From contig DASSIZ010000051.1 of the NCBI GenBank assembly GCA_035691485.1, positions 1-42,156 on the forward strand: a stretch of DNA of 42,156 bases. Reading direction: 5' to 3'. A program made the translations under genes and the position numbers. Below the pieces are notes generated by a model. That model made no database searches. It had not been told where the DNA came from and saw nothing but the letters and a program-made list of their open reading frames with translations. Numbering within the stretch: the stretch's first letter is position 1; each line of letters begins with the position of its first letter. Shown here piece by piece: positions 12,249 to 37,911 of this stretch. Source of the stretch: Terriglobales bacterium (GTDB taxonomy: Bacteria; Acidobacteriota; Terriglobia; Terriglobales; Acidobacteriaceae).

Positions 12249-13421
12249 GTGCGCGTGGGGTTTGACATCCGGCCGATCCGGGACTTTGGAGTCGGCACTT
12301 ATATCCGCAACGTAGTGCGGACGCTGGGGCTGCTGGACCAGAGCGGCGAATATTTCCTGATCGGCGGGCGCGATCGGGTGCGCGAGATCGGTAAGCTGCC
12401 GCCCAACTTCCACGTCGTTCCGTTTGCCGAAGAGGAACATTCGCCGCGCGGATATATCGGATTCGCGAAGGTGTTGCGCCATTACGCCTGCGACCTGGTT
12501 CACATCCCGCACCTGTTCTGGACACCGCTGTACCTGCCTTGCCCCTACGTGATGACGGTGCACGACCTGCTTGATTTCATGTACCGGGCGCATAACGGAT
12601 CAGGCTTGCGCCGGGCGGCTCACCGCTACCTGACCCACCGCGTGCTCAGCCGGGCGGCGCGCATCCTGGCGGTCTCGCAATTCACGAAGATGGATATCCA
12701 GCGGCTGTTCAATATTCCCCAGGACAAGATCGAAGTGGTGTACAACGCGATCGACGAACGTTTCCGCGTTGGCCACGCCACCGATGCCGACCGGGAGCTG
12801 ATCGCCGAACGCTACCAGTGCAATTACCCGTTCATCTTGTACGCCGGCAGGATCAGCCCGCATAAGAACGTGGTTCGCATCATCGAGGCGTTTTCGGCGC
12901 TAAAAACGGAGTTGGAGAAGGAAGACAAATTCCCGGATTTGAAGTTAATCATCATCGGCGACGAAGTTTCGCGCCATCCTGACTTGCGGCGGACGGTGGT
13001 CAAGAGCGGCGTGCAAAATGACGTGCGCTTCCTGGGCTTCGTGCCCGTCGAGGTGCTGCGGATTTTTTACGACGTGGCGAAAGTTTTCGTGTTCCCGTCC
13101 CTCTACGAGGGATTCGGCCTGCCGCCGCTGGAGGCGATGGCGCACGGAACCCCAGTGGTGGCGTCGAATACATCGTCGCTGCCGGAAGTTGTGGGCAGCG
13201 CGGCGGTGCTGGTGAATCCTGAGAACGTGTTTGAAATCATGCGCGCTCTGCATAAGGTCCTGGTGGACCAACCGCTGCGGGAGAAGCTGAAGCAGCGGGG
13301 CTATGAGCAGGTGCAGCGTTTCTCCTGGGACACCTCGGCGCAGCAAATCCTGGATGTGTACCGCGAAGTCGCAGGCGCGCCAGCGGCGGCGGCTGTGGAG
13401 ACCCCCATAGCGCAAGTCTGA
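12249..13421 (+). CDS. GT4-family glycosyltransferase
   Basis: Retaining GT-B glycosyltransferase that transfers a sugar from an NDP-sugar, probably to a polysaccharide or lipid-linked acceptor. 390 residues from a GTG start at 12249 that gives [20 protein letters not shown], the usual N-terminal Gly-rich donor/acceptor loop. The C-terminal Rossmann domain starts near residue 195 ([14 protein letters not shown]). It holds the EX7E motif Glu287-Glu295 in [18 protein letters not shown] and SLPEV. Specificity is not readable. It stands alone, not in a polysaccharide cluster. Confidence 0.9.
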
Positions 13422-14868: not shown

Positions 14869-15990
14869 ATGAAGAAGAAAAGCAGCCTTCGGGCCATACA
14901 CCTGGTGAAAGGTTGGGGCGGGATCCTGACCGGCCGCTCACCGCTAATGTCGATTGAAATCACGCGCGAGTGTCCGTTGAGTTGTCCTGGCTGCTACGCC
15001 TATGGAGAAGACCACCTCGGCGGCGAGAAGAATCTGCGCGACCTCAGCGACTTCAAGGGTGACGAACTGGTGGAACGGGTGGTGGACCTGGTTCGACGCT
15101 ACCGCCCGCTGCACGTGTCGCTCGTCGGCGGCGAGCCCATGATGCGCCACCGCGAGCTGGAAACGATCATCCCGCGGCTCACCGCGCTGGGAAGCTTTGT
15201 CATGCTGGTGACCAGCGCGGTCATTCCCATCCCGAAGCACTGGATGAAATTCAAAGACTTCCGCACCACCATCTCGGTGGACGGGTTGCCCGAACATCAC
15301 GATGTCCGGCGCAAACCGGCGACGTACGAGCGCATCCTCCGCAACATCGCGGGTTGTGAGGTGAATGTGCACTGGACGCTCACCCGGCCCATGTTCGAGC
15401 GCGACGGCTACCTGGAAGACTACGTACGATTCTGGAGCGAGCGCCCGGAAGTGAATTTCATCTGGGTCAGCACGTATTCACCGCAACGCGGCGAAGATTC
15501 CGCGGAAATGCTCCAGCCCGAACACTACCAGCGCCTGATTCGCGAGGCGCCGGAACTACGGCGGCGATATCCGAAGTTCCTGTTCAACCAGGAGATCGCG
15601 CGTACGCTGCTGGCGCCGCCGCGCAATCCGGACGACTGTATTTTTTCCAAGATGTCGGTGAATTACACCGCCGACCTGCGCACGCGCGTGGAGCCATGCA
15701 TTTTCGGCGGCGATCCGGATTGCAGTAAATGCGGGTGCGCGATCAGTTCAGCGCTCCACTGGATTGGGCACCGGCAACTGGCCGGCCCGCTCACGGTCGG
15801 GCACCTGGTGCGCGGTTCGGTTGGGATTGGCAAGTTCGCCGCCAACTTCCGTCCCGGCGTTCGCGAGGCCCTGCGCTGGGAACGTGACCTCGCGGCTGGC
15901 GCGCCGCGCGCAGATAACCTGGTGCAAATCGCTCCACCGGTCCCTATCGCGACGGATCAAAAGCGGGAGAACGCGGCCGCCGGCGACTAG
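14869..15990 (+). CDS. Radical SAM protein with C-terminal cysteine cluster
   Basis: 373 residues. The radical-SAM [4Fe-4S] motif is CPLSCPGC (Cys35, Cys39, Cys42), followed by YAYGEDHLGG. VSLVGGEPMM (83-92) is the SAM-binding GGEP segment and ISVDGLPEHHD (135-145) is the next conserved strand. C-terminal cysteines at 257, 277, 285, 288 and 290 (EPCIFGGDPDCSKCGC) resemble a SPASM/twitch auxiliary cluster, which is common in enzymes modifying peptides or proteins. Substrate unknown; no short precursor peptide was found next door. GAGG lies about 8 bases before the ATG at 14869. Confidence 0.85.
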   Translation: MKKKSSLRAIHLVKGWGGILTGRSPLMSIEITRECPLSCPGCYAYGEDHLGGEKNLRDLSDFKGDELVERVVDLVRRYRPLHVSLVGGEPMMRHRELETIIPRLTALGSFVMLVTSAVIPIPKHWMKFKDFRTTISVDGLPEHHDVRRKPATYERILRNIAGCEVNVHWTLTRPMFERDGYLEDYVRFWSERPEVNFIWVSTYSPQRGEDSAEMLQPEHYQRLIREAPELRRRYPKFLFNQEIARTLLAPPRNPDDCIFSKMSVNYTADLRTRVEPCIFGGDPDCSKCGCAISSALHWIGHRQLAGPLTVGHLVRGSVGIGKFAANFRPGVREALRWERDLAAGAPRADNLVQIAPPVPIATDQKRENAAAGD

Positions 15991-16258
15991 ACTGCCGCGG
16001 TAGATCATTCTCCAATTCGGCGTTTCCGCCGGCCCGCTCAAATGCCCGCTGGAAGCGGCATTGACTTCCGTGCTCTCGCCCAACTAATATCCCGCCCACA
16101 ATTTGCAAGCCGATGGAACCGGCCTGCAAGCGAAAAAATCCATGCTGTCCATCCGCGTGGGTCGGGTGCAGCATTTGCTCATCTTTCCGTAGCCGGTATT
16201 TTTAAATCCGTTGCGTCTTTTTCATTCGGGGTAGGCCATCTTGAAAGACGAGGTCTCC

Positions 16259-19200
16259 ATGGCCAAGAAGCTGCATTTCCTGCTGGTCTCCATTCTGCTG
16301 GCTTGCGTGCTGCCGTTGCCGGCACAACAAGTAGCCGTTTCCGTCGGAGGCCGCGTCAGCGACACGACCGGCGCCGTGGTGCCGAATGCCACGGTGAAGG
16401 CGGTCAACACCCAGACCGGGTTCAGTCGTAACACGACCAGTTCGACCACCGGCGATTACCAGTTGACCGCCATGCCGGTCGGCGATTACCGCATATCGGC
16501 CGAGGCCCAAGGCTTGAAGCGGATGGTAAGGAGCGTCCACCTGGATATCGGCGCCAACGCAACGATTGACTTCGCATTGCCGCCGGGGCAGGTGACCCAG
16601 GAGATCAACGTCGAGGCGCAGCCGGAGGCGGTGGAACCGACGCGGAGCATGGTCAGCGAGGTCATTGCCGAACGAGAGATCGAGACGCTCCCGGTGAACG
16701 GGCGCCAGTTCATCGATTTTGCGCTGCTGGCACCCGGGGTGACGATTGGCGACACCACCTCGGGCTCCACCGACGTGATCATCGAGCCCGTCACCAAGCT
16801 GTCATTCGCGGGCCAGAACATCCATTACAACTTCGTGGCCATCGATGGCGCCGACAATATGTCCACCGCCTCCGGCATCCAGAAAACGACGCCGTCGCAG
16901 GAAGCGGTCAAGGAATTCCGCGTCATCAACAGCGAGTACAGCACCGAGGCGGGCCGCGCGGTGGGCGGGATCATTAACATCATCACCAAGAGCGGGACCA
17001 ACCAGACGCACGGCTCGGTCTACGAATATTTCCGCAACGACGCGATGGACGCGCGCAGCATCCTGGCATCGCCCGGATTGGACAAGCTGCGGCAGAACCA
17101 GTTCGGGTTCACCCTCGGCGGTCCCATCCGCAAAGACAAGACATTTTACTTCGGCAACTACGAGGGCCAGCGGCGGCGGGAATCGCCGTTCTACAACTCG
17201 ATCATCCTCGCGAACCTGCCGGCGATCAACCGCGTCAAGACCCAGTTCTATCACCTTGCGCCGGAAAACCTGAATGTCACGCGCAACACCGATTATGACA
17301 ATATGCTGTTCCGGCTGGACCACACCTTTAATGAGCGGCACAACATGTTCGTGCGCTATTTTTTCAACGACCAGCGCGCCACCAACCTGTCGCCGCTCAA
17401 CGATGGCTTCGACCTGCCCTCCGGCTTCAAGGACAATAATTTCCGCGACCAGTCGCTGGTGGCATCGCTGACCTCTTCGCTGTCGAGGACCCTGGTCAAC
17501 GAACTGCGCGTCCAGTATGCCCACCGCTACTTCAATTTCCCGACCGATACCACGCAGCCGCACCTGGAGGTCTCGAACACGTTCACGCTCGGCGTGAACC
17601 GCGGCAATCCCGATTACTACGAAGAGGGCCGCTGGGAAGTCGTGGACAACGTCACCAAGGCCTGGGGCAAACACACCCTCAGCTTCGGCGGGAATTTCGA
17701 CCATGTGAACACGATCGAATCGTTCCCGCTGTTCTATCCCTTCGAGGCGGATTTCCCCAGCTTGAGCGCCTTCCTGGGGACCGATTGCCTGTTCGGTCCG
17801 GCGGTACCGTCGTTGTGTGGCACGGCGGCAAACCCGATTCCGCACCCGTTCGTGATTTTCTTCGAGCGTTTCAATGCTGCCAACGGCTTCAACGAAACCT
17901 CGTTCAATACCTCGGTCTTCACCGGTCAACGGATCTCGCAGGCCGTGCGCAACCAGGCGCGCGGCGAGTTGGGACACACCTACGAGGGCCTCTACATCCA
18001 GGACAAATGGCACGCAACCGATCGTCTGACCATGAATTACGGCCTGAGGTGGGAGGGCGAAACCTGGCCCAGCATTGCCCTGGACAGCCCGATGAAGAAC
18101 TTCGATCCCCGCGCCGGTTTCTCGTACAGTCTCGGCACCAGCCACAACGTGATCCTGCGCGGCGGAGCGGGCCTGTTCCACGGCACCATCCCCTCGCCCC
18201 TGCTGATGTGCCAGATTCCTTCCTGCGGCGGGCTTTCGAAGTATCCCGGCCGCGAAAACATTCAGGACGGGCTGAACTCCACCACCCGGCTTTCCGCGTT
18301 CGGTTCCGACCCGCTTTCCATGAACATCGCGCTCGGCGGAATCCTAAACGGCAACTATCCGCTGCTGATTCCCTCTCCTTTCCCCGGCGCTCCGCCCTCG
18401 GTCGCGCTGGACGCCACCGTTGTCCGTTTCGCACAGAAACACAAGCCACCCTACGGCGAGCAGGCCAGCCTCGGCCTGGAGTTCGAGCCGTTCCACGATG
18501 CCATCCTGGACGTCAGCTACCTGCACGTTCGCGGCATCCATCTCGGCAGCTTCTATAACGTCAACCAGCCGAACCCTTCCGGCCAGTTGCTGATGCACGA
18601 TTCCAACGGCAATACCGGGCTGAAGAACATGTATTGCGCCAACTTCCCATGCTTCCCCGACGTGGGTTCGGGAATCATCCCCAACATCCGCACTTTCCCG
18701 TTCGCCATCGACTTCGAGGCGGACTCGAAGTGGGACTCGCGATGGGACGGGCTGCTGGTGAACTTCAACAAGCGCATGAGCAAGCACGTCGCCGGCGGCA
18801 TCAGCTACACCTGGTCGCACGGTATCGACAACGGCCCGAACCCAAGCTTCGTGCTGATTCCGCAGGACAGCTCGAATTTCAGGGCCGAACGCGCGAGCTC
18901 GGCGGACGACGTGCGGCATCGTTTCGTGGCTAACATGACGCTGCAGGGACCCACGCACGTGAATCCCCTCGTCAACGGCTTCCAGTTCTCCTTCATCCTC
19001 ACCCTGGAATCGCCGCACTACTTCACCAAGTTTGCCGGGTTCGACGCCAACGGCGACATCTTCGGCAACAACGACCGGGTCGGCATCGAAGCACGCAACA
19101 CCTTCAAGGGGGACAGCTACAAGGCTGCCGACGTGCGCCTATCGCGTACGTTCGCCTTCAGCGAGCGGACCCACCTGGAAGCAATGGCAGAGGCCTTCAA

Positions 19201-19393
19201 CCTGACCAATACGCTCAACGTGCGTTTCTTTAACACCGCCTACGGCGCATCGGATTTTTGCCCCGCCGGCGGCGCCGCCAACGGCTGCATAGGACCTCTA
19301 TTCAAGGAAGGTTCGCCGAACCCCGGCTATGGAACGCCTCGGGCAGTTTTCAATCCGCGGCAGATTCAATTGGCCGTCAAGCTGACGTTCTAA
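16259..19393 (+). CDS. TonB-dependent receptor with carboxypeptidase-regulatory-like N-domain
   Basis: Outer-membrane beta-barrel transporter of the large acidobacterial Oar-like group. The ATG at 16259 gives 1044 residues with a signal peptide (FLLVSILLACVLPLPAQ). Residues about 28-110 form the CarboxypepD-regulatory-like domain (VGGRVSDTTGAVVPNATV, TTGDYQLTAMPVGDY). The plug domain follows (LPVNGRQFIDFALLAPGV, GGIINIITKSGTN, VYEYFRNDAMDARS). The remaining 750 residues are barrel strands ending in IQLAVKLTF, with the terminal Phe typical of Bam substrates. The substrate is unknown; plant-polysaccharide or peptide uptake is often assumed for this group. The 268-base upstream gap holds only imperfect palindromes. 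Confidence 0.92.
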   Translation: MAKKLHFLLVSILLACVLPLPAQQVAVSVGGRVSDTTGAVVPNATVKAVNTQTGFSRNTTSSTTGDYQLTAMPVGDYRISAEAQGLKRMVRSVHLDIGANATIDFALPPGQVTQEINVEAQPEAVEPTRSMVSEVIAEREIETLPVNGRQFIDFALLAPGVTIGDTTSGSTDVIIEPVTKLSFAGQNIHYNFVAIDGADNMSTASGIQKTTPSQEAVKEFRVINSEYSTEAGRAVGGIINIITKSGTNQTHGSVYEYFRNDAMDARSILASPGLDKLRQNQFGFTLGGPIRKDKTFYFGNYEGQRRRESPFYNSIILANLPAINRVKTQFYHLAPENLNVTRNTDYDNMLFRLDHTFNERHNMFVRYFFNDQRATNLSPLNDGFDLPSGFKDNNFRDQSLVASLTSSLSRTLVNELRVQYAHRYFNFPTDTTQPHLEVSNTFTLGVNRGNPDYYEEGRWEVVDNVTKAWGKHTLSFGGNFDHVNTIESFPLFYPFEADFPSLSAFLGTDCLFGPAVPSLCGTAANPIPHPFVIFFERFNAANGFNETSFNTSVFTGQRISQAVRNQARGELGHTYEGLYIQDKWHATDRLTMNYGLRWEGETWPSIALDSPMKNFDPRAGFSYSLGTSHNVILRGGAGLFHGTIPSPLLMCQIPSCGGLSKYPGRENIQDGLNSTTRLSAFGSDPLSMNIALGGILNGNYPLLIPSPFPGAPPSVALDATVVRFAQKHKPPYGEQASLGLEFEPFHDAILDVSYLHVRGIHLGSFYNVNQPNPSGQLLMHDSNGNTGLKNMYCANFPCFPDVGSGIIPNIRTFPFAIDFEADSKWDSRWDGLLVNFNKRMSKHVAGGISYTWSHGIDNGPNPSFVLIPQDSSNFRAERASSADDVRHRFVANMTLQGPTHVNPLVNGFQFSFILTLESPHYFTKFAGFDANGDIFGNNDRVGIEARNTFKGDSYKAADVRLSRTFAFSERTHLEAMAEAFNLTNTLNVRFFNTAYGASDFCPAGGAANGCIGPLFKEGSPNPGYGTPRAVFNPRQIQLAVKLTF

Positions 19394-19469
19394 GATCACG
19401 GATTTTCGTGTGCTGGAGTGCCGCGCTCATAGGGGCCACGCGTAAGTCAATTCAATCAAGGAGTGTGTT

Positions 19470-19826
19470 ATGGCCGCGAATCCTCTCCCCAATCCCGAGC
19501 TTGACCTGGCTACCGATCACATACCGGGCGGGACCATCGTTCACTGCAAGGGAAGAATAACTTCAGAAACGACAGAACACCTCAAGACGTCCGTCAAGCC
19601 TCTTTTTGAACAAGGCAAAACGTTGGTGTTGGACTTGACTGATGTGAGTTACATGGACAGCTCGGGCTTGGGCACTATCGTCGGAATGTACATTTCGGCG
19701 AAAACTGCCCACTGCCGGTTGAAGCTCGTCAACTTGAACCAGCGTTTGAAGGAGCTATTCAGCATTACCAGGTTGGGCGAGGTAATGTCGGAAGGACGCG
19801 ACCCGAACGATTTCGGCATTCCGTAA
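19470..19826 (+). CDS. STAS-domain anti-sigma factor antagonist
   Basis: SpoIIAA/RsbV-type switch protein: when dephosphorylated it binds an anti-sigma kinase and frees a sigma factor. In 118 residues the STAS fold is complete: TIVHCKGRITSETTEHLK, LVLDLTDVSYMDSSGLGTIVGMY and LKLVNLNQRLKELFSITRL. Ser64 in MDSSGLG aligns with the phosphorylated serine of SpoIIAA. AAGGAG lies 7 bases upstream of the ATG. No cognate RsbW-like kinase or sigma factor is in the window. It follows the TonB receptor by 76 bases, perhaps without coupling. Confidence 0.92.
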   Translation: MAANPLPNPELDLATDHIPGGTIVHCKGRITSETTEHLKTSVKPLFEQGKTLVLDLTDVSYMDSSGLGTIVGMYISAKTAHCRLKLVNLNQRLKELFSITRLGEVMSEGRDPNDFGIP

Positions 19827-19866
19827 TTGTGGGACCGCTAGAGGAGTTTTCGAATATGTCCTCACT

Positions 19867-20307
19867 CTAATTTGGAGACGACCTCTGTTCTCGCGCCATG
19901 GACCGCTGGTCTCGATTCGCAGCCACGCTCGCAACTGGATAGTCCCTGCAATCGTGCGCCTCGAACACGCGACAAGCTTGGTAAGCATCTTGCTCATGCA
20001 CACGGTTGGTTTGCGGGTTCTTGATCTGGTAAAGCCACGCACATTGGCTGCATCGAAAGCTGTCGATGACCGCTTCGTCGTGTCGACACTGGGGGAGAAT
20101 GGAGCGCACTGAGAACGGGTTTCTCGTGAAACTCCGGTTAGCGCGTTCGTGAAGCCGCTGAGTCAACCACGCGATTGCCAACTTTGCTTCGACGCAATTT
20201 GTGTCCTTGCATGTGGCGTATCCATTCGCATCGGCGTGTTGGGCGTGTGATTTCTCAAGCAGAAGCCTGAGAGACTCGATTTCTTCGGCTGCGATGCTTG
20301 AAGCCAT
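19867..20307 (-). CDS. Hypothetical Cys-rich protein
   Basis: 146 residues from the ATG at 20307 (MASSIAAEEIESLRLLL), which has a GGAG about 7 bases upstream; the open frame further upstream to 20583 looks non-coding. An N-terminal helix is followed by AEDxxC-like segments: YATCKDTNCVEAKLAIAWL, then CRHDEAVIDSFRCSQCAWLYQ and ACRVFEAHDCRDY. The CxxC (FRCSQC) and the other Cys/His pairs suggest a small zinc-binding fold, but I know no named family. Convergent with the STAS gene. Confidence 0.62.
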   Translation of the reverse strand: MASSIAAEEIESLRLLLEKSHAQHADANGYATCKDTNCVEAKLAIAWLTQRLHERANRSFTRNPFSVRSILPQCRHDEAVIDSFRCSQCAWLYQIKNPQTNRVHEQDAYQACRVFEAHDCRDYPVASVAANRDQRSMAREQRSSPN

Positions 20308-21108
20308 GGGAAACTCCGGCTGGAAACTTTCAATGCCATGGGATTGTCCAACTCCACCCGGAATTGCTTCTGTGCAAAATTGAACACTTTTCTGATTATT
20401 GAGAAATCGCCATCTCACAAGAAATTGCCGAGCCCATCCCCCGGCGTCCCGATTTTCCCGGCGATCCCGACTCAGGGACTTGCTGATTCTTGCGATTGCT
20501 GAACTTGTCGCTAAGGGGACATTGCCTCGAACTCGGCGCAGTCCGTGAAGTAGAGGCGATCCAAGAGGTGAACCGCGCTGCATCTGGCAGGATGATCGCG
20601 GAAGCAGTCGTCATTTTTTCACAAGTTTTCCACGTCGGATTTTTCCACATTGCTGTGGAGAACTCTGTGAAAAATCGCGCCTCTCGCGCGCTACCGGCCG
20701 AGCAGCTAATGAGTTCAACACTTTGCACTGCGATGGATGACGTGGTTTCCTCAGTGGCGTGTTCTACGCTTTCGGCATCTTGTCAGTGATCGCCGTCACG
20801 TTTCATGGTGAAGAGATTCTTTCTCGTCGATAAGCCGTCGATCTGCGCAGTGTGTTGTTCAGATGTCGTCCGGGGGCAATATCCACCAACTCTGCTACGC
20901 GATCTGACAGCGTGCTGAATCGGTGTGATTGTTCGCCGCTACCGATAATGTCAACATTGATGACAAGCAGGCAACTCCACGCCAAGATGCGCCGTCCGAC
21001 AGATTCAGGCAGGTTCCCCACCGGCTCGTACCCACTCTGGCCAGAGTACGAACTGCATCACGCCTATCGTCAGCGCGGTATTAGTTGCCGGACCCAAGAG
21101 GCGGCACT
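20308..21108. other. Gene-poor stretch, about 800 bp
   Basis: No open frame here looks like a gene: the available frames on both strands are short, mutually overlapping and lack ribosome-binding sites or recognisable motifs. The stretch holds an AT-rich patch (about 20376-20407) and the DnaA-box-like cluster at 20615-20674. The part from 20700 to 21108 contains nothing I can name. Confidence 0.6.
20615..20674. other. Cluster of five DnaA-box-like 9-mers
   Basis: Against the consensus TTWTNCACA, the plus strand has TTTTTCACA (20615-20623), TTTTCCACG (20626-20634, one mismatch) and TTTTCCACA (20641-20649). The minus strand has TTCTCCACA (20654-20662, one mismatch) and TTTTTCACA (20666-20674). 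Three are exact matches. The converging arrangement TTTTCCACA / TGTGGAGAA / TGTGAAAAA resembles the core of many chromosomal origins. No dnaA, dnaN or other origin-linked gene is in the window, so it may be an origin, a DnaA-titration site or a relic. Confidence 0.5.
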
Positions 21109-21384
21109 GTGTCGTCGAGCCGATTTGAATTCGGAGCAGACCAGCGCAAGCAGATCGTGCCAGCTTCGATCCCGCGCACACGACTGTTCAGAGGCGACCT
21201 GTTCGCCGAAATCATCCAAGACCGCCGCAGCCACCCTGCTCTATTCTTCGCGATAGTGCAAAGGCACGGTTCGACCGAAATCCTCATGTTGGGACAATTC
21301 CGCTCGCGATCGAAAGCTCAGGCGGCGGCGAGGCAGTTCATGGCTGATTATTCGAGGCGAAGTAAAGGCCAACGTGCAGCTTAG
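21109..21384 (+). CDS. Small hypothetical protein
   Basis: 91 residues if started at the GTG at 21109; a TTG at 21085, just after an in-frame stop, is the only earlier start. The C-terminal half reads as a structured domain: HPALFFAIVQRHGSTEILMLGQF then SKAQAAARQFMADY, a strand-strand-helix pattern that I have seen in small acidobacterial hypothetical proteins. The N-terminal half is basic and featureless. No operon partner. A real gene is likely but the start is uncertain. Confidence 0.45.
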   Translation: MSSSRFEFGADQRKQIVPASIPRTRLFRGDLFAEIIQDRRSHPALFFAIVQRHGSTEILMLGQFRSRSKAQAAARQFMADYSRRSKGQRAA

Positions 21385-21955
21385 CTGAGGAAGATTGCCA
21401 TGGCCGGAGTGAGGACGCAATACGCCTTCCCGGGGCGGTTTGGAGCAGGCCGACACGCGCCCCTAGTGCCACACCGGCGGTCACAATTACCAACAAGAAC
21501 TGTGTAAACAACTGAAAAATACAGAGCTGATAGTAACCGGACCTGTAAGCCAAATTATATAAAGCCGTTTCCAGCTAAATTCCTGCCGGACTGCTGTTTA
21601 GGTTCCAAACAACGCGATTACAGCGGCTTGCGTCGATTCTCGTAACAGGACCCACCACCTCGCTCCACTGCGAATGCCTGAGGCGCTCGGTCAAGGGTTA
21701 CTGGGAGGAAGTAGGACGCTCAGGATTTCGCAAGCCTGTAGACGCAAAGGGCGCGATACCAGCGTTCCAAAACGCCGGATTCCTATGCCTGATGAATCAT
21801 GTACCTCATTATCTGTCAATGACTTGCGGTTCTGTTCATTGGCGAGGAAGACAGGCGGCATCTGCCAAGAGTGTCCCTCCGAAACCTTGCCTTCGCTCAC
21901 CATTGAACTACTCTGTTTCGCAAAACGGGGGAATCCATTTTGAGAGGGGGGAGCG
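21385..21955. other. Non-coding leader upstream of the S53 peptidase
   Basis: About 570 bases without a convincing gene; lower in GC than its surroundings in the first half. It contains the rnpB 3'-end copy at 21537-21556. The later part could be a long 5' leader for the peptidase gene. I could not fold it into any riboswitch class I know. Confidence 0.5.
21537..21556. repeat. Displaced copy of the rnpB 3' end (possible attachment site)
   Basis: CCGGACCTGTAAGCC followed by A-AATT matches 25870-25889, the 3' end of rnpB, at 19 of 20 positions and in the same orientation. The two copies are 4.3 kb apart, and this one lies downstream of rnpB with respect to rnpB transcription. That is the geometry left when an element integrates at the 3' end of an RNA gene. 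No recombinase gene remains between the copies. Confidence 0.6.
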
Positions 21956-24900
21956 GTGATCCATAAATTGGGAGTCGCGTCCGTCGTTGTTGCCCTTTTC
22001 CTCGCTGTTCCTTGCGCCACCGCGCAAGTCGAATCAGGACTTCGCTCTCGCCCTGGGGTCGTCCAGGCGGTTCAAGAATCAGACCGAATCGCGCTGCCCG
22101 GAAACGTGCGTCCCGAGGCGATGCCTGAAAACGACCGCGGAAGAGTGCCGGACTCGCTGCCCTTGGAGCACATGCTGCTCCAACTAAAGCGCTCCCCCGA
22201 ACAAGAAGCGGCCCTCCAGCAATTCATTGACGAGCTCCACACCCAGGGCTCGCCGAATTTTCATCACTGGCTGACTGCCCAGGAATTCGGCGAAAGGTAC
22301 GGTGTTGCACCGTCAGACCTGGACGCTGTTACCGCGTGGCTCGAGTCCCACGGTTTCCAAGTCAACGTGGTTTACCCGAGTGGCATGCTCATTGATTTTT
22401 CCGGCACTGCCGGCCAGGTGGGCGCGGCATTCCAGACGGAGATACATCACATCGAGTTTAAAGGCGAGCGGCACCTCGCCAACATGAGCGACCCGCGCGT
22501 ACCCGCCGCTCTCGCCCCGGTGATCTCCGGCGTCGTTTCGCTGCACGATTTTCGCCCGCACGCCTTGCATCGCATGCGCAGAGTAAAACCAGAATTCACT
22601 TTTACAGATTTCCTTGGCGGAATTAACTACGCTGTGGTTCCCGCAGATTTGGCCACGATCTACAACCTGAATCCTGTCTTTGCCTCCGGCATTTCCGGCC
22701 AGGGGCAGACTATCGTTCTGATCGAGGACACAGACGTCTACCGCGCCGCCGACTGGAGCACATTCCGCTCGACATTCGGCCTCAGCAAGTACAGTTCAGC
22801 CTCATTCACGCAGGTGCATCCGCCGGCGCCAGCTCCTACCAACAACTGTGGCGCACCCGGTGTTATTGCGCCCAACGACGCGGAAGCCATCCTTGACGCG
22901 GAATGGGCCAGCGCGGCTGCGCCCAGCGCCGCGATTGAGATGGCCGCTTGTGCGGATACCAGCACCACCTTCGGCGGTCTCATCGCTCTCCAGAACTTGA
23001 TCAACGCAAGCACGGCGCCGCCGTCGATTATGAGCATCAGCTACGGCCAGTGCGAGACCGTGAACGGAGCGGCCGCCAATGCCGCCTATAACTCGGCTTA
23101 TCAGCAAGCGGTCGCCGAGGGCGTATCCATCTTCGTAGCCGCCGGCGACAGCGGCGCTGCCGGATGCGACAACAGCGCCGCCGAAGCCACACACGGCATC
23201 GGCGTCAACGCCTTCGCTTCGACTCCCTACAACGTTGCCGTCGGCGGCACCGATTTCAGCGATACCTTCGACGGCACCAACGATACCTACTGGAGCCTCG
23301 GGAACACGGCAGACTTCGGCTCCGCGCTTTTCTATATTCCCGAAATCCCGTGGAACGATTCCTGCGCCGGCGGGTTGCTGTCCGCTTATCTTGGCTATTT
23401 CCCCACTTACGGTCCGAGCAGCCTTTGCAACGATCCGCTCTTTGGCTCTTTCTTTATGACTACGGTGGCCGGCGGCGGCGGTCCCAGCCAATGCGCCACG
23501 GGTACGCCCTCGACCAGCGGCGTGGTGAGCGGTTCCTGTGCGGGATGGCCGAAGCCCTCCTGGCAATCTGTGTTCGGCAACCCCAGCGACGGTGTGCGCG
23601 ACACACCCGACGTCTCACTGTTTGCTGCCGACGGCCTATGGAGCCATTTCTATATTTTCTGCTGGTCGGACACGGCAAACGGCGGCGCCGCTTGCGGCAG
23701 TGACCCCAGCACCTGGTCGGGCGCGGGCGGTACTTCGTTCTCATCGCCGATCTTGGCCGGGATCCAGGCGCTCATCAATCAAAAGGCGGGAGGCCCGCAG
23801 GGCAATCCAGCCCCCGTTTACTATCAGCTCGCCGCTGCCGAATATGGCTCCGCCGGCAGCACGGTTTGCATTTCATCCAACGGCACAGGAGTGTCCCCGA
23901 ACTGCACCTTCTACGACGTCACCTTCGGCGACATGGACGTGAGCTGTGTCGGCCCCAACTGCTATCTGGGTGGCGGCTCGGTTGGCGTGCTCTCCACTTC
24001 CAACGCAGCGTTCGCCCCTGCTTATGGCACAACGACCGGCTGGGACTTTGCCACGGGCATTGGCACGATCAACGCCGCCAACTTGGTAAACAACTGGCCA
24101 GTGTCGGGGCCACCGCAGGACTTCACGATCTCGGCGTCGCCCGCCAGCTTAAGCATTACGCAGGGCGACAGCGGGTCCAGCACCATCAGCATCACTCCGC
24201 AAAATGGTTTCAGTGGCAGCGTCAGCTTTGCCGCCTCCGGTCTGCCCAGCGGCGTGACTGCGTCTTTCGATCCGGCCAGTGCGACAACCAGCAGCACCCT
24301 GAAGCTTACCGTCTCCAGCACCGCTGCTACTGGCACGGCAAATGTGACCATCACCGGCACATCCGGCAGCCTGACACGACAGGCTCAACTCACTATTACC
24401 GTCAATCCAGCAGCCAGTTTCACACTATCGGCTTCGCCGAGCGCGCTGAACGTTATTCAGGGAGGCCAGGGCTCCAGCACGGTTACCGTCAATCCCCTGA
24501 GCGGTTTTAGTGGTACCGTGGCGCTCTCCGCCTCCGGTTTACCCAGCGGCGTAACCGCGTCTTTCAATCCGGCCAGCACTACCACCAGCAGCACCCTGAC
24601 GCTTGCCGCATCTGAAACTGCTGCTGTCGGTACAGCCACCGTGACCGTTACCGGCACCTCTGGCAGCTTGACCCAGCAAGCGCAGATCTCCCTTTCGGTT
24701 AATCCAGCGCCCAGCTACACGCTTTCTGCATCGCCGGGTTCGTTGACCATAGTCCAGGGGAGTCAGGGTTTCAGCACCATTGCGATTACTCCGCTGAACG
24801 GCTTCAGCGGTACCGTCGCGCTGTCCGCCTCCGGTTTGCCTGGCGGGGTGACCGCGTCATTCAATCCGGCCACTGCCGCAACCAGCAGTACGCTGACGTT

Positions 24901-25600
24901 TGCCGCTTCCGGCACGGCTGCCATCGGCACGACCGTCGTGACCATTACCGGCACCTCGGGCAGCCTGACGCGGCAAACGCAGATAACTCTTACTGTTAAT
25001 CCGCCGCCGAGTTACACACTTTCTGCTTCGCCGAGCTCGCTGAACGTTATTCAGGGAGGCCAGAGCTCCAGCACGATTACCATCAATCCCCTGAACGGCT
25101 TCAGCGGTACCGTCGCGCTGTCCGCCTCCGGTTTACCCAGCGGCGTGACTGCGTCCTTCAACCCGGCCAGTACCACGGGTACAAGCACGCTGACCTTCAC
25201 CGCCGGCGCGACCGCCGTCACCGGGAGTGTCATTGTTACCATCACTGGGACGTCGGGTAGCTTGACTGCGTCCACTACGATTTCTCTCACCGTGACGCTC
25301 GCACCGGACTTTTATCTTTCGGCCTCACCTACGAGTATGAGCATTGCACGTGGCAGCCAACAGACCACGAACATTACCGTCGTGCCTGTGAACGGCTTCA
25401 ACAGTAATGTGACATTCTCTGTCTCAGGATTGCCAAAAGGCGTGTCGGCCGCTTTCACTCCAAATCCGGCCACGTCCACGAGCACGTTGACGTTGACTAC
25501 GAGCAACGGGGCCAACGTGGGAACGTCTACTGTCACGATTACCGGTGCTTCGGGCGCTTTGAGACATCAGACAACGATCAGTCTTACGGTCCACCGCTGA
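21956..25600 (+). CDS. Secreted S53 family peptidase (sedolisin/kumamolisin-like) with five Ig-like repeats
   Basis: Serine-carboxyl endopeptidase, exported and probably active at low pH. 1214 residues from a GTG at 21956, preceded by AGGGGGGAG. Signal peptide 1-24 (VVALFLAVPCATAQ). An activation prodomain spans about 60-205 (FIDELHTQGSPNFHHWLTAQEF). The catalytic domain spans about 225-715: Glu310 and Asp314 in the ExxxD motif AEAILDAEW, oxyanion Asp398 in VAAGDSG, and nucleophile Ser594 in GGTSFSSP. Residues about 721-1214 are five 99-residue Ig-like repeats, probably for surface or substrate attachment. No neighbour suggests a substrate. It is enclosed by the rnpB 3'-end repeats. Confidence 0.93.
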   Translation: MIHKLGVASVVVALFLAVPCATAQVESGLRSRPGVVQAVQESDRIALPGNVRPEAMPENDRGRVPDSLPLEHMLLQLKRSPEQEAALQQFIDELHTQGSPNFHHWLTAQEFGERYGVAPSDLDAVTAWLESHGFQVNVVYPSGMLIDFSGTAGQVGAAFQTEIHHIEFKGERHLANMSDPRVPAALAPVISGVVSLHDFRPHALHRMRRVKPEFTFTDFLGGINYAVVPADLATIYNLNPVFASGISGQGQTIVLIEDTDVYRAADWSTFRSTFGLSKYSSASFTQVHPPAPAPTNNCGAPGVIAPNDAEAILDAEWASAAAPSAAIEMAACADTSTTFGGLIALQNLINASTAPPSIMSISYGQCETVNGAAANAAYNSAYQQAVAEGVSIFVAAGDSGAAGCDNSAAEATHGIGVNAFASTPYNVAVGGTDFSDTFDGTNDTYWSLGNTADFGSALFYIPEIPWNDSCAGGLLSAYLGYFPTYGPSSLCNDPLFGSFFMTTVAGGGGPSQCATGTPSTSGVVSGSCAGWPKPSWQSVFGNPSDGVRDTPDVSLFAADGLWSHFYIFCWSDTANGGAACGSDPSTWSGAGGTSFSSPILAGIQALINQKAGGPQGNPAPVYYQLAAAEYGSAGSTVCISSNGTGVSPNCTFYDVTFGDMDVSCVGPNCYLGGGSVGVLSTSNAAFAPAYGTTTGWDFATGIGTINAANLVNNWPVSGPPQDFTISASPASLSITQGDSGSSTISITPQNGFSGSVSFAASGLPSGVTASFDPASATTSSTLKLTVSSTAATGTANVTITGTSGSLTRQAQLTITVNPAASFTLSASPSALNVIQGGQGSSTVTVNPLSGFSGTVALSASGLPSGVTASFNPASTTTSSTLTLAASETAAVGTATVTVTGTSGSLTQQAQISLSVNPAPSYTLSASPGSLTIVQGSQGFSTIAITPLNGFSGTVALSASGLPGGVTASFNPATAATSSTLTFAASGTAAIGTTVVTITGTSGSLTRQTQITLTVNPPPSYTLSASPSSLNVIQGGQSSSTITINPLNGFSGTVALSASGLPSGVTASFNPASTTGTSTLTFTAGATAVTGSVIVTITGTSGSLTASTTISLTVTLAPDFYLSASPTSMSIARGSQQTTNITVVPVNGFNSNVTFSVSGLPKGVSAAFTPNPATSTSTLTLTTSNGANVGTSTVTITGASGALRHQTTISLTVHR
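24119..25597 (+). repeat. Five tandem 297-bp repeats encoding Ig-like domains
   Basis: Repeat units begin near 24119, 24416, 24713, 25010 and 25307, an exact 297-base period (99 codons). Each starts with a [FY]-x-[IL]-SASP motif and carries GFSG, ASGLP-x-GV-x-A-F-x-P and GTSGSL signatures. Units 2 and 4 share nearly identical nucleotide stretches (for example around 24443-24470 and 25040-25067), while unit 5 is the most divergent. This indicates duplication with later gene-conversion-like exchange. Confidence 0.88.
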
Positions 25601-25867
25601 GACGCAACCGGAGCTGCCACAGAGTACAGACTGTGAGCGGCGCCTTTTCGCACCCATGTCTTTTTGTTCGCGATGTATACGCGTGCTATCAACATCCGCA
25701 CATCGTCGCGGTGATCACGCTCCGTATAACGGGCTAACCGAAGTGATCATTAGGCGACGAGACTTGCCTCACCCAGCTCACAGTCTGCGGACCTAGAATT
25801 GTCTCTCATGCAGTGGACACTACGACGAGGCAGACAGATGTAAGTTGCCTTCAATGAATAGTTTGGC

Positions 25868-26244
25868 AGCCGGACCTGTAAGCCGAATTCTGTCCGCCCT
25901 TGCAGGCGGGACGGTCATTCCTCTGGGCCGCGCATCGCTGCACGGCTCTAGCGACCTACCCGGAAGTTTGACGCGCCGAGCCGGCACGCGCCGCCTTGCG
26001 GCGGCTCCTCCCCTATTTGGTCTTGCTCCGTGTGGGGTTTGCCCTGCCCCGCCCATTACTGGACGGGCGGTGCGCTCTTACCGCACCTTTTCACCCTTAC
26101 CCTTGCGGGCGGTATGTTTTCTGTGGCACTTTCCGTCGACCAGCCTTGAAGCCGGCCTCCCGGACGTTATCCGGCACACTGCTCTGCGGAGTTCGGACTT
26201 TCCTCTATCTCCCTTGCGAGCGACAGCGACCGTCCGGTCCGGCT
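25868..26244 (-). ncRNA. rnpB: RNase P RNA (bacterial class A)
   Basis: Catalytic RNA that matures tRNA 5' ends. On the minus strand the conserved blocks appear in order: GAGGAAAGTCCGAACTCC (P4 5' side and J3/4), AGAGCAGTGTGCCGGATAAC, ACAGAAAACATACCGCC, GGTAAGGGTGAAAAGGTGCG, GGTAAGAGCGCACCGC, AGAGGAATGACCGTCC (P4 3' side) and CAGAATTCGGCTTACAG. The terminal helix P1 closes with AGCCGGACC at the 5' end (26244) and GGTCCGGCT at the 3' end (25868). This gives about 377 nt, usual for class A. Ends are set by P1 pairing and could differ by a few bases. Confidence 0.95.
25870..25889. repeat. rnpB 3'-end copy of the direct repeat
   Basis: CCGGACCTGTAAGCC followed by G-AATT inside the 3' end of rnpB. 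Partner of 21537-21556 (19 of 20 identical, same orientation). Would be the attL-side core if the S53 peptidase segment arrived by site-specific integration. The 25601-25867 interval between the peptidase stop and rnpB carries nothing I recognise. Confidence 0.6.
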
Positions 26245-26256
26245 ACCAACTTGTTC

Positions 26257-37789: not shown

Positions 37790-37825
37790 GCTGGAGTTCT
37801 CCTTCAATTCGGCTCGGGCCGGAAT

Positions 37826-37876
37826 GGTAGGAGTTATCAGCCTTGCAGCAAGGCGGTTAAGGCGAACTCCATCGCC
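37826..37876 (-). promoter_or_regulatory. Fluoride riboswitch (crcB motif) upstream of crcB
   Basis: On the minus strand: GGCGATGGAGTTCGCC, a linker TTAACC, hairpin GCCTT-GCTGC-AAGGC, then TGATAACTCCTACC. This matches the fluoride aptamer: a closing GGCG/CGCC hairpin, a second hairpin, UGAU, and a pseudoknot between GGAGTT and AACTCC. The expression platform is also visible. The 8 bases TGGAGTTC in the aptamer loop are exactly complementary to GAACTCCA at 37792-37799, which begins at the last G of the crcB Shine-Dalgarno. Fluoride binding would hold GGAGTT in the pseudoknot and free the site. Confidence 0.92.
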
Positions 37877-37882
37877 GCACAA

Positions 37883-37911
37883 AGTGTAGCAGACCATCTT
37901 TTAGGTGAGAA
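37883..37911 (-). promoter_or_regulatory. Candidate promoter for the crcB riboswitch transcript
   Basis: On the minus strand TTCTCA (37911-37906) and TACACT (37888-37883) are 17 bases apart, a fair sigma-70-like match (4 of 6 each). The predicted start, about 7 bases after the -10, coincides with the first base of the aptamer at 37876. It lies just after the stop of the hybrid kinase gene, so crcB could also be read through from there. Confidence 0.4.

Follow-up and report, generated by a model that had tools for sequence, protein, structure and literature searches.

The question raised by this locus is why a short piece of the 3′ end of rnpB, the gene for RNase P RNA, is found a second time 4.3 kb downstream of the gene. 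The locus lies in a stretch of 42,156 nucleotides from contig DASSIZ010000051.1 (C51) of a Terriglobales bacterium of the Acidobacteriaceae (assembly GCA_035691485.1); the whole of this stretch is referred to here as the window. The segment 21537–25889, which carries a gene for an S53 peptidase, is very probably a small cassette that integrated at the 3′ end of rnpB. Its main features are:

25863–26245, minus strand: rnpB, class A RNase P RNA gene, the intact target gene (RF00010 full model, 285 bits)
25870–25889, minus strand: core of the rnpB-proximal attachment site (attL), within the intact rnpB 3′ end (repeat search)
21537–21556, minus strand: displaced rnpB 3′ end, the attR of the S53 cassette (repeat search)
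21956–25600, plus strand: cargo gene for an S53 (kumamolisin-like) peptidase of 1214 amino acids with four repeats of ~297 bp, open throughout (list of open reading frames (ORFs), PF09286, match to a relative of solved structure)

A pattern search confirmed the 20-nt repeat CCGGACCTGTAAGCC[A/G]AATT of the preliminary description at 21537–21556 and 25870–25889. Both copies are on the same strand, 4,333 bp apart and with one mismatch between them, and the displaced copy is located downstream of rnpB. No third copy with up to three mismatches is present in the window, and 100 dinucleotide shuffles gave no match. At the same threshold the whole assembly (3,836,507 bases in 145 contigs) contains only these two matches, while a reversed-pattern control gave none. 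The repeat is not scattered over many unrelated sites. No relative with the same peptidase–rnpB order and without the repeat came up. As in integrative elements, a direct repeat of the rnpB 3′ end brackets the segment and the gene is intact at one of the two ends. The description of the 4.3 kb as holding the peptidase gene as sole long ORF and no recombinase was borne out by the ORFs and by the absence of PF00589 and PF00239 matches. The informative parts of the segment are its non-coding ends, ~260 nt after rnpB and ~400 nt before the displaced copy.

A 22-nt pattern of the rnpB end was searched with up to three mismatches in 398 genomes of the family (denoted by G numbers) and matched at least once in 191 of them. 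At least ten genomes contain a full rnpB that is followed downstream, on one contig and strand and over spans of 1.4–34 kb, by a displaced copy of its 3′ end. This tally is a lower bound drawn from the places listed, including those of 20 chosen genomes, and three-mismatch matches on unlinked contigs (e.g. G069, G180), which may be due to chance, were left out of it. The distances from rnpB are:

G000 (window): displaced copy at 4.3 kb
G003 (same genus as the window): 4.4 kb
G008: 1.4 kb
G085: 4.1 kb
G095: two displaced copies, at 30.6 and 33.9 kb
G118: 21 kb
G143: 8.1 kb
G148: 18.8 kb
G299: 20.9 kb
G318: 1.75 kb

Within this family rnpB is therefore not the rare integration target that it had been taken for. 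In G003 the usual form of the family, GGTCCGGCT, is found at the displaced copy, while the resident rnpB end deviates from it. Behind this displaced end lies a strong terminator-like hairpin (L065, contig C23, 11055–11085, minus strand), which may be the original rnpB terminator. Separately, a 19-nt exact direct repeat was noticed at the very end of rnpB and again ~1.4 kb downstream in G016 (L075, contig C117), where it begins later than in the other islands.

Integrase genes lie beside rnpB in several of these genomes. A 370-aa tyrosine recombinase gene (PF00589, E value 1.4e-29) starts 85 bp after rnpB in the 30.6-kb island of G095, and the start of an integrase 71% identical to it lies 88 bp after rnpB at a contig end of G012. 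G085 carries a C-terminal remnant ~1 kb after rnpB that is 86% identical to the G095 enzyme over 59 residues. An integrase of a different clade is found 116 bp after rnpB in the 21-kb island of G118. Its relatives are an integrase on an IMG/VR contig (57% identical, ~0.8 kb downstream of rnpB, from which one small ORF separates it) and one in G317 (65%), located on a stretch that lacks rnpB and ending ~360 bp ahead of a displaced copy. A C-terminal integrase remnant within 0.33 kb of rnpB in G202 completes the list, so that an integrase or a remnant is located within 1.2 kb of rnpB in G095, G118, G012 (start), G085 and G202 (remnants) and on the IMG/VR contig. A genome scan yielded two loci, JAICSO010000009.1 (identical to G118) and PMOP01000538.1, which ends 91 nt past the integrase match. 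Matches to the G095 integrase occur in 58 of the 398 genomes (G095 included); none of 29 compared loci of weaker relatives (≤39% identity, G095 excluded) has an rnpB end copy in flanks of ~1.5 kb. Thus, larger integrase-bearing islands at the same place, which the preliminary description had suggested looking for, do exist in G095 and G118, where the integrase lies near the restored rnpB, and together with the empty and occupied sites described below they support the insertion reading.

The ends of the segment are shared with the congener G003:

25788–25862, minus strand: left end of the element, alignable with G003 by blastn over ~75 bp beyond rnpB
21537–21640, minus strand: right end of the element, 104 bp up to and including the final base of the displaced repeat, 72% identical to the right end in G003 (E value 5e-9)

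Between these ends blastn gave no match of the window with G003 and the genes are unrelated: those of G003 encode a zinc alcohol dehydrogenase, an AraC regulator and an aldo/keto reductase. A motif of the right end (21604–21630), the pattern for which was built from the window and G003 themselves, was detected in two of 61 genomes, the window and G003, and at these two places only. For the left end, a loose MAFFT alignment was obtained with G002, in which blastn stops at +9 after rnpB and the contig ends 320 bp after the gene; G001 does not align beyond rnpB (blastn stops at +4). In addition, one weak alignment was noted inside the G003 element (score 27 versus a best score of 25 in 100 shuffles).

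Comparison of the sequences beside the rnpB ends revealed two arm types. In type B, a left box, TTAGTGTCCA, stands 41–47 nt past the rnpB pattern, and the right arm contains TTTGCRCGTTAAGTC. The left box of type A, TTGTGACGCCGGTGYGACGC, is found 41–48 nt past the pattern and recurs 95–123 nt before the right copy; the right arm of this type begins with CATTGACACTTC. Eleven right arms of type A and six of type B were gathered; neither of the two arm patterns matched in viral sequences. The type-A box (≤3 edits) was found at 23 distinct places, 18 of them at fixed offsets from an rnpB 3′ copy (7 after and 11 before it, the displaced copy of the window among these) and the other 5 in neither position, in a set of loci many of which were chosen for their rnpB copies. 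Specificity is lower for the short B box: with one mismatch, 9 of its 30 places follow an rnpB end copy. A longer B-left pattern occurs at four places in the 398 genomes, each of them immediately behind an rnpB end: one in G003, one in G299 and two in G152. Neither arm type fits G008 or G318, and in G085 only a right arm does. A 9-nt arm candidate, AATAACTTG, matched 17 of 27 fragments at up to two mismatches and 9 of 27 at up to one, the window not among them, and was set aside. As a side observation, a 4.3-kb contig of G152 (L144, contig C28) ends in an rnpB end copy with a B-left box; the three rnpB-site integrases have no match on it, and we read its ORFs as resembling lactate dehydrogenase and a Crp-type regulator.

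Both box types are represented in the window:

25814–25822, minus strand: TAGTGTCCA, the type-B left box, 45 nt past the 22-nt pattern of the rnpB end
21466–21486, minus strand: TTGTGACCGCCGGTGTGGCAC, a type-A left box at up to three edits from the consensus, 48 nt past the displaced copy and probably the left boundary of a further, older element (box scan)
15991–21536, no strand assigned: probable remains of an older type-A element (inferred), with genes for an outer-membrane receptor (16241–19393) and a STAS protein (19470–19826) and an ORF (19867–20583)

A type-B box is also found at 42–47 nt in G095, G012, G299, G148 and G003, and the window contains no type-A box other than that beside the displaced copy. 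Because a B box follows rnpB and an A box follows the displaced copy, the window, first described as one element, probably is a tandem array, as judged from its sequence: the S53 type-B cassette would lie ahead of an older type-A element and would be the newest member. In G095 a B unit is followed by an A unit and both right arms are kept; in G239 (contig C50, no rnpB seen on it) a B right arm, an A box and an A right arm occur in this order. Neither G001 nor G003 has the stretch 15991–21536 in the interval from rnpB to the radical-SAM gene. Local alignment and arm profiles recognised no far attachment copy of the older element above shuffles between 15.9 and 21.5 kb, and by the same means no second displaced copy was found in G001.

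Empty and occupied sites can be told apart by conserved genes next to rnpB. A gene for a protein of 59 amino acids follows the full rnpB at 158 bp in G188, 407 bp in G253, 755 bp in G009 and 943 bp in G171. The same gene follows a displaced copy at 176 bp in G148, where the copy is linked to rnpB, and at 38 bp in G226 and 37 bp in G012, where it lies on another contig than rnpB. In total this gene has 11 distinct places, the remaining four being 3.3–8.3 kb from the nearest copy, and none is in the window. Two further genes serve as anchors:

12249–13421, plus strand: conserved gene directly after rnpB in G024 and G010, family anchor (DNA comparison)
14869–15990, plus strand: radical-SAM gene, located downstream of rnpB and used as the anchor for the genus (DNA of G001 and G003 84% identical to it)

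The former, which we take to encode a glycosyltransferase, is separated from rnpB by 53 bp in G024, 88 bp in G010, 12.5 kb in the window and 19.3 kb in G148; nine other genomes show distances between those of G024 and G148. It is located on the other strand in G021 and on the other side of rnpB in G152 and G202. The interval between rnpB and the radical-SAM gene measures 1.9 kb in G001, 6.0 kb in G003 and 9.9 kb in the window and is filled by different sequence in each. In another family of the order (11 loci, L084–L093 and L097) a conserved ORF of 434–607 aa follows rnpB at nine loci, starting no more than ~400 bp after the rnpB end; two of the contigs end within the ORF. A match of the sequence behind the G118 island to sequence beside rnpB in G278 looks like a dispersed repeat and was set aside.

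According to the cassette reading, an element whose attachment site contained the final ~20 nt of rnpB would have recombined with the 3′ end of the chromosomal gene. The element-borne end would have kept rnpB intact, while the original end was pushed 4.3 kb downstream, and the displaced copy would be the original host end. The left arm appears to be of type B, as beside the G095-like tyrosine integrase in two relatives. We infer that an integrase of the G095 type carried out the recombination and was later lost or acted in trans; the identity of the older element is inferred as well.

Nevertheless, several observations weigh against an insertion of this kind. The DNA between 13.5 and 21.5 kb was compared with 41 genomes, and the 3 kb past the displaced copy with 107 oriented rnpB loci (blastn); among the matches listed, no genome has rnpB joined to the sequence at 21536 and below. 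Of the empty-site comparison suggested in the preliminary description, the family-level part thus held, with empty and occupied rnpB sites among relatives, whereas an exact empty site for the left junction of the segment, the one far from rnpB, was not found in the relatives searched. The left flank may itself be an older element. Past the displaced copy, the window and G003 have no sequence in common until the radical-SAM gene. The repeat comprises just 20 bp, the longer B-left pattern misses the window and G002 at three mismatches (the short box alone matches), and the right arm of the window does not score above shuffles against the type-B profile, being known by its core and G003 only. With 59.6%, the G+C content of the segment equals that of its flanks, so composition is no sign of recent import. 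No recombinase is encoded in the segment, contig C51 has no PF00589 or PF00239 match, and the full-length tyrosine recombinases found in the assembly are only an adjacent Xer-like pair on contig C33.

How a cassette without an integrase came to this site can be explained in two ways. There is about an even chance that it is a decayed island, i.e. that a larger, integrase-bearing element at rnpB lost its integrase and other genes by deletion. The islands of G095 and G118 with their intact integrases and the truncated integrases of G085 and G202 are in line with such decay, and the right arm and displaced copy of the window have drifted. In addition, the assembly contains three integrase fragments, on contigs C77 (cut by the contig end), C10 and C116, of which those on C77 and C10 have weak similarity to the G095 enzyme. 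Because these three fragments exist and one is cut by a contig end, a broken-up integrase gene in the assembly is possible. Decay is opposed by the lack of any detected integrase fragment in the segment, the three rnpB-site integrases having no tblastn match in the whole window. Furthermore, seven of the ten genomes with linked copies (G000, G003, G008, G143, G148, G299, G318) show no recombinase or remnant: PF00589 and PF00239 are absent from the segments of the first six and that of G318 is a single ORF. Two of these integrase-less islands measure only 1.4 and 1.75 kb and contain whole genes.

A substantial possibility, if short of even, is that the segment is a passenger and that integrase-less cassettes were moved in trans by integrases of other rnpB elements. 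The window, G003, G299 and G148 have the B box as do G095 and G012, while G143 and the second unit of G095 have the A box as does G118, and the offsets of these boxes agree as well. Moreover, the window and G003 combine the same ends with different cargo, and in G095 an integrase-bearing and an integrase-less unit stand in tandem. Movement in trans is opposed by the assembly of the window, in which an intact rnpB-type integrase was not found, and by the pairing of arm type and integrase clade, which is not clean. The G095-type integrase is accompanied by B boxes in G095 and G012, and the G118 type by A arms or A boxes in three genomes (G118, G317, G202), but the pairing fails in G085 (G095-type remnant, A-like right arm, no box after rnpB) and on the IMG/VR contig (G118 type, no A box after rnpB).

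A duplication of the rnpB 3′ end without any attachment mechanism seems very improbable. Short repeats of the rnpB end occur downstream of Escherichia coli rnpB, which counts in its favour, as does the 62-nt duplicate of G008 with one mismatch and no arm of either type. In many other genomes, though, conserved arms of 60 nt (11 A, 6 B) lead up to displaced copies that have their first base in common (AATTCGG), the cargo between the copies is unrelated and integrases are close by. Chance similarity, favoured by the shortness of the repeat, was rejected as next to impossible in view of the empty shuffles and whole-assembly control and of the recurrence in other genera.

Tentatively, and as something we hold to be rather less than probable in its entirety, we propose that two tyrosine-integrase clades (G095 type and G118 type) with two arm signatures converged on the rnpB 3′ end in this family, that the cassettes stand in tandem arrays in which most units lack an integrase and are moved in trans, and that cargo is swapped within the same ends.

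The cargo of the window is a predicted peptidase of family S53, as indicated by its pro-kumamolisin activation domain (PF09286, E value 3.7e-28) and by catalytic-domain similarity, the best solved relative being kumamolisin (1t1e, E value 1.7e-30). It shares with kumamolisin and other S53 sedolisins the GGTSFSSP motif, presumably the catalytic motif, and differs from them by its four C-terminal repeats of ~297 bp, which we read as Ig-like (immunoglobulin-like). Among 61 genomes the closest relative is encoded in another genus (G019, 54% identity over 677 aa) and the best matches of congeners reach just 40–41% across the catalytic part, which fits an acquisition of the gene. No phage structural genes are present in the segment, which is filled by the one S53 ORF (no phage library was searched). 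A distant S53 gene (29% identity) lies ~1.5 kb downstream of rnpB in another genus (G017, contig C53, 40235–41428); this may be coincidence, S53 genes being numerous.

Other segments carry different genes. In G008 the 1.4-kb segment contains two genes that match the PADLOC pair PDC-M21A and PDC-M21B (E values 1.4e-42 and 3.4e-64), and at this locus (L067, contig C81) it is the 62-nt duplicate of the rnpB 3′ end that brackets the candidate defence pair. The cargo of G143 includes a PDC-S01 match and an SNF2-type helicase, the second unit of G095 consists of one kinase-domain gene, and the single ORF of G318 matches DUF6438 and ankyrin. Apart from the cassette, the window contains a fluoride riboswitch (37821–37885, minus strand, 58 bits).

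The best-known targets of integrative elements are tRNA and tmRNA genes. The literature searched, outside which most subscription papers lay, yielded no description of rnpB as an attachment site; in the available passages rnpB figures as a promoter, a reference or marker gene, an annotated gene or part of a cited title, or is absent. The parts of the publication on the TIGER/Islander resource at hand name tRNA/tmRNA, protein-coding and intergenic targets, with rnpB and RNase P not named there (PMC12424338). If our reading is true, an essential ribozyme gene that is used repeatedly, apparently by two integrase clades, would represent a new kind of attachment site, and the rnpB site would be a place to look for acidobacterial cargo, candidate defence genes included. 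Searches limited to tRNA and tmRNA genes would miss elements at rnpB. In addition, trans mobility of integrase-less cassettes that have their arms in common with an integrase-bearing neighbour becomes testable.

Among known systems, the islands collected by Islander and TIGER resemble the elements described here in several respects: the gene 3′ end is kept at one junction with a displaced fragment at the other, tandem accretion takes place, and a tyrosine integrase lies near the restored gene (G095, G118). They differ in the target, which is a tRNA or tmRNA gene there and rnpB here, and in that most linked segments here have no integrase. Cis-mobilizable elements (CIMEs) likewise keep their attachment ends, contain no recombinase and can stand in tandem with an integrase-bearing element. 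The segment in the window conforms to this, as attL and attR are present and PF00589 and PF00239 are absent, although its target gene differs and it is known from sequence alone. Tycheposons and other small cargo elements at tRNA genes differ from the window cassette, which has no recombinase and is located at rnpB instead of a tRNA gene, but like the elements at rnpB they place variable cargo at the end of an RNA gene.

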